Assembly (NCBI GenBank): GCA_025057455.1 | Contig: JANWWY010000015.1 | Coordinates: 1-34,686, forward strand | DNA from: Aquificaceae bacterium | Lineage (GTDB): Bacteria > Aquificota > Aquificia > Aquificales > Aquificaceae | Reading direction: 5' to 3' | DNA: 34,686 bases | Part shown: positions 1 through 7,912 of the stretch, in pieces | How the letters are laid out: each line of letters starts with the position of its first letter | Position numbering within the stretch: position 1 is the first letter of the stretch | The notes under the pieces: generated by a model | What the model saw: the letters and a program-made list of their open reading frames with translations, nothing else | Database searches by the model: none | What the model was told of the DNA's origin: nothing | Translations under genes and position numbers: made by a program

Positions 1-30
1 TTTTATTTTTTTGTGCATACAGGCATAAAA

Positions 31-50
31 GCATACAGATGTCTGTATGC
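31..50. repeat. perfect 9-bp inverted repeat (GCATACAGA / TCTGTATGC)
   Basis: Arms at 31-39 and 42-50 are perfectly complementary, and GCATACAG is also repeated directly at 15-22. On the minus strand the hairpin is followed by TTTTAT, so it could be a weak terminator for transcripts running out of cmk. The direct plus inverted copies would also fit a protein-binding site. Neither role can be decided from sequence. Confidence 0.45.
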
Positions 51-161
51 GGTATAGCTCAAAGCCTTGTGTATCAATCTTTTAAACTTTACAATAGCGC
101 GCTCAACTTTGCGTTACCGACGGTTTTGGAAAAATAACCTTCATTTGAGAGGGGTACCCCC

Positions 162-190
162 TTGACAAAAGTGTTGTTATTTCTTATTAT
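162..190 (+). promoter_or_regulatory. strong sigma-70-type promoter reading into the CRISPR remnant
   Basis: TTGACA at 162-167, a 17-nt spacer and TATTAT at 185-190 give a near-consensus promoter. The start of transcription is expected near 197, about 14 nt before the intact repeat at 211. The palindrome GGGGTACCCC sits two bases upstream of the -35 box and could be an operator. The likely product is a short pre-crRNA-like transcript. Confidence 0.7.
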
Positions 191-210
191 TCTTTATGTG
201 CTTAGGTAAG

Positions 211-319
211 GTTGCTAATCTACCGTGTGGAGTTGAAACCGTGGAGTTGAAATTGCTTGTTTTTCCTGAGCTGTTAAAACATTAAATTCAGTTGCTAACC
301 TACCATATAGAAGTTAGTA
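211..319 (+). CRISPR. decayed orphan CRISPR array (one intact and one or two degenerate repeats)
   Basis: An intact 29-nt repeat at 211-239 starts GTTGCTAATCTACC and ends GGAGTTGAAAC, the type of repeat seen in thermophilic Aquificales. It is followed at once (238-252) by a second copy of its tail with a 2-nt deletion (ACCGTGGAGTTGAAA). After a spacer-like stretch of about 38 nt (253-290) comes a degenerate copy at 291-319. Its first 14 bases match at 13 positions and its 3' half is mutated, as expected of a trailer-end repeat. No cas gene is in the window. The orientation with the leader on the left fits the promoter at 162-190. The array is too small for routine array finders and is most likely a relic. 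Confidence 0.65.
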
Positions 320-330
320 GACCTATTCTG

Positions 331-978
331 TTATCCTCTCTCCTTTATAAGGTTTAGAACCTTTTCTATTACTTCTTCAAGTTTCATATCTGTAGTGTCT
401 ATTATCACTGCATCCTCCGCAGGCTTGAAAGGGTACAATGGTCTGCTGGCATCTCTTTGGTCCCTTTCTATTATGGCTCTTAATATTTCCTGATAGTCCA
501 CCTGAAAACCTTCAGACTTGAGTTGCTCATATCTTCTTCTTGCCCTCTCTTCTGGGGATGCAGTCAGGAAAATCTTTAGGTCCGCATTGGGGAATATGTG
601 TGTGCCCGCATCCCTACCCTCTATAACCGCCTGTTTTTCTCCCATCAAAGAACGAAAAAACTGATTTATCCTTTCTCTAAAGGCTGGAAACGTTGCTATT
701 TGAGAAGCTATTTTACCTACATCCTCAGAACCCAGCTTATCACTTATGTTTTCTTGCTTGTAGAAGACCTCCGTTCTGGCAATGCCCAACTCAACTCTAA
801 TAGGACTATCAAAAACCTTAAGAACTTCCCCTTCCTCTAAACCTTCAATCATACACACGTAAGCTGTTGCTCTGTATACAAGCCCAGTGTTTAGATAGGG
901 TATTCCAAGCCTTCTGGAAATCTCTTTGGCTACTGTGCTTTTACCGCTACCTGCAGGACCATCTATGGTTATCTTCAT
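331..978 (-). CDS. cmk: cytidylate (CMP/dCMP) kinase
   Basis: This 215-residue protein phosphorylates CMP and dCMP with ATP in the cytoplasm to supply CDP and dCDP for nucleic acid and lipid synthesis. It starts with the P-loop GPAGSGKST (residues 7-15), followed by the NMP-binding segment with LNTGLVYRA. It has IEGRDAGTHIFP in the middle and the lid-like RARRRYEQL with a later RDQRDASRPLYP. These are typical of bacterial CMP kinase and the length is normal. The start ATG overlaps the pilT stop by one base (TAATG), so the two are translationally coupled. It is the last gene of the minus-strand run. In E. coli cmk precedes rpsA; here rpsA is about 11 kb away. Confidence 0.95.
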   Translation of the reverse strand: MKITIDGPAGSGKSTVAKEISRRLGIPYLNTGLVYRATAYVCMIEGLEEGEVLKVFDSPIRVELGIARTEVFYKQENISDKLGSEDVGKIASQIATFPAFRERINQFFRSLMGEKQAVIEGRDAGTHIFPNADLKIFLTASPEERARRRYEQLKSEGFQVDYQEILRAIIERDQRDASRPLYPFKPAEDAVIIDTTDMKLEEVIEKVLNLIKERG

Positions 979-7120: not shown

Positions 7121-7912
7121 CTATCCTATAGTTTTTAAGGCTTCTTCCACTCCCTTGCCTTCGTGCACTATCAAACTCAAAGCCCTGACGATTTTAACCC
7201 TATCTTTTGCCTGGAATACGTTCCTTCCTACAGAAAGCCCCTTTGCACCGGCTTTTATAGCACCGTAGACCATTTCCAGAAATTCCTTTTCTGTTTTCAT
7301 CTTTGGACCCCCCGCTATAACCACGGGAATTGGGCAAGCCTCCACAACCCTTGAAAAACTCTCGGTATCTCCCGTATATGGCACCTTCACTATATCCGCT
7401 CCCAGTTCAGCCCCTATCCTTGCACAGTGAGCAACTACTTTTGCGTCGTACTGGTTCATGTCTTTACCTCTACCGTAAACCATGGCGAGCAAAGGCATAC
7501 CCCACTCCTCGCAAACCCTCGAAACATAGCCAAATTCCCTAAGCATTTCCCTTTCCATATCCGCACCTATGTTCACGTGTATGGATACGCCATCCGCACC
7601 CAGCCTTATAGCTTCTTCTACAGTGCATACGAGCACCTTATCGTTTTTGGTTGGAGCCCAATCGGTAGATGCGGAAAGGTGCACTATAAGACCTATATCC
7701 CTACCCCTTCCCCTATATCCGGCTCTTACCATACCCTTGTGAAGAACCACTGCGTTGGCACCACCCTCTGCCACATCTTCAACCGCTTTTCTTATATCCT
7801 CTATACCCTCTATGGGACCTGAGCTCACTCCATGGTCCATTGGAACTATTATTGTCCTACCCGTTTCCCTGTTTAATAGCCTTTCAATTCTTACTTGTTT
7901 GCCTATACTCAT
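7121..7912 (-). CDS. DhnA-type class I aldolase (ADH synthase-like / archaeal-type FBP aldolase)
   Basis: This 263-residue TIM-barrel lyase belongs to the DeoC/FbaB/LacD superfamily. MDHGVSSGP (25-33), [13 protein letters not shown] (48-60), Y146 and the Schiff-base lysine K176 in VKVPYTGD are visible, with the phosphate-binding GGP at 201-203 and SVGRN at 217-221. From memory of the family, the sequence is particularly close to the archaeal enzyme making 2-amino-3,7-dideoxy-D-threo-hept-6-ulosonate for an alternative aromatic pathway. Archaeal class I fructose-bisphosphate aldolases share the same fold and motifs, so the substrate cannot be fixed. The ATG has GAGG six bases before it, inside the end of tonB (2 nt gap). 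Confidence 0.8.

Follow-up and report, generated by a model that had tools for sequence, protein, structure and literature searches.

The leader and the array

The window, meaning the whole 34,686-nt stretch of DNA analysed here, is contig C6 of an Aquificaceae genome (G000; 66 contigs, 1.42 Mb, 99.7% complete), and its base 1 is base 1 of the contig. By comparison of cmk, the nearest named relatives are uncultured Aquificaceae MAGs at 67-70% identity. The window opens with a CRISPR leader (1-210, plus strand) whose left edge is the contig end and whose right edge abuts an intact 29-nt CRISPR repeat, GTTGCTAATCTACCGTGTGGAGTTGAAAC (211-239). Further along the same strand lie a stray 12-nt repeat tail, GTGGAGTTGAAA, that is probably the remnant of a deleted repeat (241-252), a 38-nt spacer (253-290) and a degenerate leader-distal terminal repeat (291-319), after which the convergent cytidylate kinase gene cmk (331-978, minus strand) closes the distal end of the array. 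The two repeats and the tail had been recognised in an earlier, sequence-only reading of this DNA, and they stood up to closer analysis: the first repeat has exact copies elsewhere in the genome and in relatives, the tail is in place, and the terminal repeat matches the first at 19 of 29 positions. A chance repeat was ruled out by the exact genome-wide copies of 211-239 and by the rarity of the 19/29 match: of 67,314 background 29-mers taken from the window, 1 matches as well.

With one intact and one 19/29 repeat, a 38-nt spacer and a putative deletion scar between them, the locus has the two or more repeats and the regular spacer by which an array is recognised. The spacer is of the modal length in relatives (mostly 36-41 nt), degenerate terminal repeats are present in the arrays of relatives too, and the spacer and worn repeat together fit the leader-distal end of an array of this leader family. 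That the tail directly follows the first repeat points to a deletion that was out of register. Among the loci examined, a duplicated 10-12-nt repeat tail right after a full repeat was seen for 2 of the 196 distinct full repeats; both are in this genome (window 241-252 and G000:C37 ~7558-7598). Comparison of the spacer with phage and plasmid sequences, as the sequence-only reading had suggested, and with IMG/VR gave no convincing protospacer, few viruses of this host group being known. No protospacer was found in the loci examined from this genome and its relatives, and the repeat itself had no match on viral contigs.

The promoter-like TTGACA-17-TATTAT element that had been described is present inside the leader (162-190, plus strand). 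Its hexamers (TTGACA at 162-167 and TATTAT at 185-190, spaced by 17 nt) match 11 of 12 consensus positions. By consensus scan alone, promoter-like sites were not above chance (2 found versus 1.8 expected from shuffles); both hexamers fall in conserved columns of 40 aligned homologous leaders. The TATTAT columns show 0.6-0.97 agreement, and TTGACA lies within the most conserved leader block (132-170, plus strand, ending in ...GAGAGGGGTACCCCCTTGACAAAA), for which mean agreement among the 40 leaders is ~0.9. The conserved core of the leader spans ~46-200. A palindrome, GCATACAGATGTCTGTATGC (31-50), is common to all three leaders of this genome and is poorly conserved in relatives. Given the conservation of these columns, the leader can be regarded as well preserved and a transcription start near 197 can fairly be inferred. 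The picture of a decayed, nearly empty array behind a live-looking leader was thus upheld, one intact repeat remaining behind a leader in good order.

Sister arrays and a shared leader family

The sequence-only reading had staked its case on further copies of the repeat, and these exist both in relatives and in this genome, where the repeat occurs at ~14 places on seven contigs (C3, C6, C15, C37, C45, C55 and C63). The leader occurs at three sites. Its two further copies, at ~91% identity to that of the window, are on C55 (G000:C55:23938-24183), where two repeats follow, and on C15 (G000:C15:17810-18034), where one follows; loci of a relative, G013, are similarly reduced to one or two repeats behind their leaders. 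Across this genome and its relatives, arrays behind the window-type leader range from 1 to 34 repeats. Of 61 genomes of relatives, 24 had a match to the leader or the repeat. A search for the leader pattern in named genome contigs, among which records of this organism may be missing, gave no match.

The remaining sister arrays vary in composition. C37 carries a run of four repeats plus one cut repeat, and C45 carries three repeats and a lone variant, GTTCCTAATCTATCTTGTGGAGTTGAAAC, ~275 bp past the end of the array (L017:450-478). C3 and C63 each have one window-class copy, which closes an array of a second repeat class, GTTTTAATCCCACCGTGTGGGGTTGCGAC. In both of these arrays (L016:61-197 on C3 and L018:8666-8737, minus strand, on C63) an identical 14-nt sequence, TGGAACTGGAAAAG, is followed by the one window-class repeat, and a similar mixed repeat pair is found in G008 (L140:2265-2343). 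At ~0.5 kb from the C55 array there is another leader-like element, accompanied by a single repeat of the second class (L013:9600-9775); partial copies of this element are present on C8 (G000:C8:23172-23263) and C41 (247-376).

Leaders homologous to that of the window stand in front of repeats of at least three classes: that of the window, GTTTTAAGCCCACTGTGAGGGATGGAGAC with its variants, and GTTCATTTTCCACATTCTATACAGATTAT in G013 (L134). By comparison with window bases 46-200, this three-class family is seen in relatives at L127, L128, L129, L133, L134, L137, L138, L140 and L143. In a leader sample that is uneven and was gathered by similarity to the window leader, mean identity was 0.83 for leaders of the same genome but different repeat classes versus 0.74 for leaders of different genomes but the same class. 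Leaders of different repeat classes in G035 are 95-97% identical. Leaders of one genome mostly fall together irrespective of their repeat class, the three from this genome forming one group with a support of 100; the exception is the L127/L133 pair (G006/G013), which groups across genomes by class.

As a lead, this genome-wise clustering is consistent with homogenisation within genomes or with recent spreading. It is possible, if on balance doubtful, that in the Aquificaceae one leader family has spread and been homogenised within each genome across three repeat classes, so that the leader and not the repeat is the unit that disperses or undergoes gene conversion. If so, unlike repeats could depend on a single promoter and perhaps on a single docking site for the integrase, and near-empty leader loci such as that of the window would mark places where spreading leaders landed or were left behind. 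In Flavobacterium columnare, the Cas1 of one system has been shown to be used in trans by an array whose leader and repeat are different (PMC8092290); by analogy, an integrase shared by unlike arrays is plausible in the Aquificaceae. Conserved blocks in front of unlike repeats of the same genome offer a direct test of whether, in these thermophiles, Cas1-Cas2 specificity lies in the leader or the repeat, and the family is also useful for asking whether leaders spread by gene conversion.

cas genes and contig ends

The locus is joined to CRISPR arrays by its shared repeat, its conserved leader and the linkage of that leader to cas genes in relatives. In G006 and G010 cas3-cas4-cas1-cas2 immediately precedes the leader, and the distance from cas2/cas1 down to the main leader in relatives is no more than ~0.4-1 kb. 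The full G010 set (cas6b, cas7, cas5, cas8, cas3, cas4, cas1 and cas2) is of type I-B. Another leader copy in G006, with eight repeats, is directly upstream of csx1-cmr1-cas10-cmr3-cmr4-cmr5-cmr6-cas6-cas1.

A search of this genome for cas1, cas2 and cas6, which the sequence-only reading had called for, was successful for the last of these. The Cas1 and Cas2 Pfam families had no match in the assembly, a result backed by searching with a relative's proteins: a concatenated G010 I-B query recovered only Cas6b, with no Cas1, Cas2, Cas3, Cas4, Cas5, Cas7 or Cas8. The Cas6b (68% identical to that of G010) is encoded at the very end of C23; it was recovered with the relative's protein, the negative search with the Cas6 Pfam family PF10040 being a false negative. 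Type III genes are present as well. The edge of C16 encodes Csx1 and the start of Cmr1, that of C21 the end of Cmr4 together with Cmr5 and Cmr6, and the end of C19 Csm5 with part of a probable Csm4. When compared with the intact G006 operon, the C16 and C21 edges bracket a missing cmr1-cas10-cmr3 stretch. In all, CRISPR-Cas features are cut at nine contig ends (C3, C6, C16, C19, C21, C23, C37, C45 and C63). As every cas piece is cut at a contig end, the missing genes coincide with assembly gaps, and from the lack of a cas1 match one cannot conclude that the gene has been lost.

For the same locus it had been proposed that no cas genes are nearby and that the array is an orphan. The first statement holds for the right side of the window, where no cas genes were found, the recognisable ORFs are housekeeping genes, the 20 ORFs scanned had no Cas match and the ~10 kb by which orphans are defined is clear; it does not carry over to the left, where the leader ends the view and only 161 bases precede the promoter box at 162. 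The second is unproven: the contig ends where the main arrays of relatives run into cas2/cas1, and the genome as assembled holds Cas6b and type III genes, Cas1 and Cas2 not being found. 'Orphan' calls in fragmented assemblies can be contig-end artefacts. If large arrays that lack an adaptation gene are sought, G022 is the more promising case, a complete one-contig relative with 193 repeat matches and no Cas1 family match.

We nevertheless see some possibility, though a rather low one, that the array is a true orphan relic, in which cas1, cas2 and the I-B interference genes have really been lost and small arrays decay unrenewed, read at most by Cas6b and the type III complexes. Such a loss would agree with the lack of Cas1 and Cas2 matches in a 99.7%-complete assembly, with Cas6b as the only I-B protein found, with the shortness of the arrays and with several same-genus assemblies that likewise lack Cas1, but the cas pieces that were found all lie at or next to contig ends, and arrays sit at the edges of C3, C37, C45 and C63. 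Moreover, in a study of the Aquificae no CRISPR array was reported from the MAGs, the likely reason being poor binning of contigs of this kind (PMC7689252).

A reduced member of a multi-array family

The right flank of the array bears on a second alternative. The gene order purL-lspA-gatC-recA-pilT-cmk is common to the window and G006, and synteny with relatives stops at cmk. The genes that follow cmk vary: G006 and L107 have the same 332-aa gene, while in L108 cmk is followed by a 457-aa gene and then lon. Homologues of this last pair are on C55, the contig with a sister leader. The window array thus lies at a synteny break, which may have arisen by recombination between copies of the leader.

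It is unlikely that the window array belongs to the main I-B cas locus as its array end, cas2-cas1 having adjoined base 1 on the left and been lost at the contig edge. The contig does stop right at the start of the leader, and in G006 the same purL-to-cmk block lies ~6 kb from an I-B array and leader with cas2/cas1/cas4/cas3 within ~0.4 kb, in matching orientation; other genes part cmk from that array in G006, however, and L107 and L108 differ after cmk. In addition, window bases 1-50 are also present in the sister leaders of C55 and C15, neither of which is preceded by cas genes, so the window may lack them too. A stand-alone small-RNA gene that reuses the leader promoter, with no array at all, is very improbable and gained no support, since the promoter-like boxes and short length that might suggest it are set against an exact genome-wide repeat, a normal spacer length, a terminal repeat, a leader homologous to those of arrays of up to 34 repeats and an RNA fold of the array no better than that of shuffles.

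The window array is of an ordinary, known kind: a multi-array CRISPR family, of which it is a strongly reduced member. We consider it very probable that it is a shrunken satellite array of this I-B/III family, most likely transcribed and served in trans. The leader (1-210) would hold both the promoter and the site beside which Cas1-Cas2 would insert spacers, and 211-239 would be the last usable repeat. An out-of-register deletion would have taken the middle of the array, so that beyond this repeat there remain the tail (241-252), a single old spacer (253-290) and the worn terminal repeat (291-319). Most likely the satellite array is still transcribed from ~197 and the Cas6b of C23 processes its RNA in trans, which would give crRNAs with an 8-nt GUUGAAAC 5' handle starting at ~232. 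These would feed the type III (Cmr/Csm) and perhaps the I-B effectors of the sister arrays. Whatever competence for spacer uptake the locus might retain, acquisition in trans may be impossible in this genome, given that neither Cas1/Cas2 nor the I-B set was found.

Like isolated or orphan arrays (PMC5294841), the array has no cas gene in its visible flank, but on the leader side that flank consists of the leader alone, so the definition is not applicable. The type I-B (Cst/Tneap) CRISPR-Cas systems of the Aquificaceae, for example G010 L078, have a homologous leader and an identical repeat; of their cas genes, the assembled part of this genome holds that for Cas6b only. At the type III-B (Cmr) locus L083 of G006, the leader is homologous and the repeat differs by one base, and there, unlike in the window, the cas genes are adjacent and complete. 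The organisation of the Methanocaldococcus jannaschii type is that of a multi-array CRISPR in which dispersed arrays have a common leader. In the multi-array systems surveyed in PMC12814883, as here, leader and repeat recur at dispersed sites, some of them far from cas genes, and the distant arrays are shorter; the present genome differs in that several of its arrays retain just one or two repeats behind a well-conserved leader.
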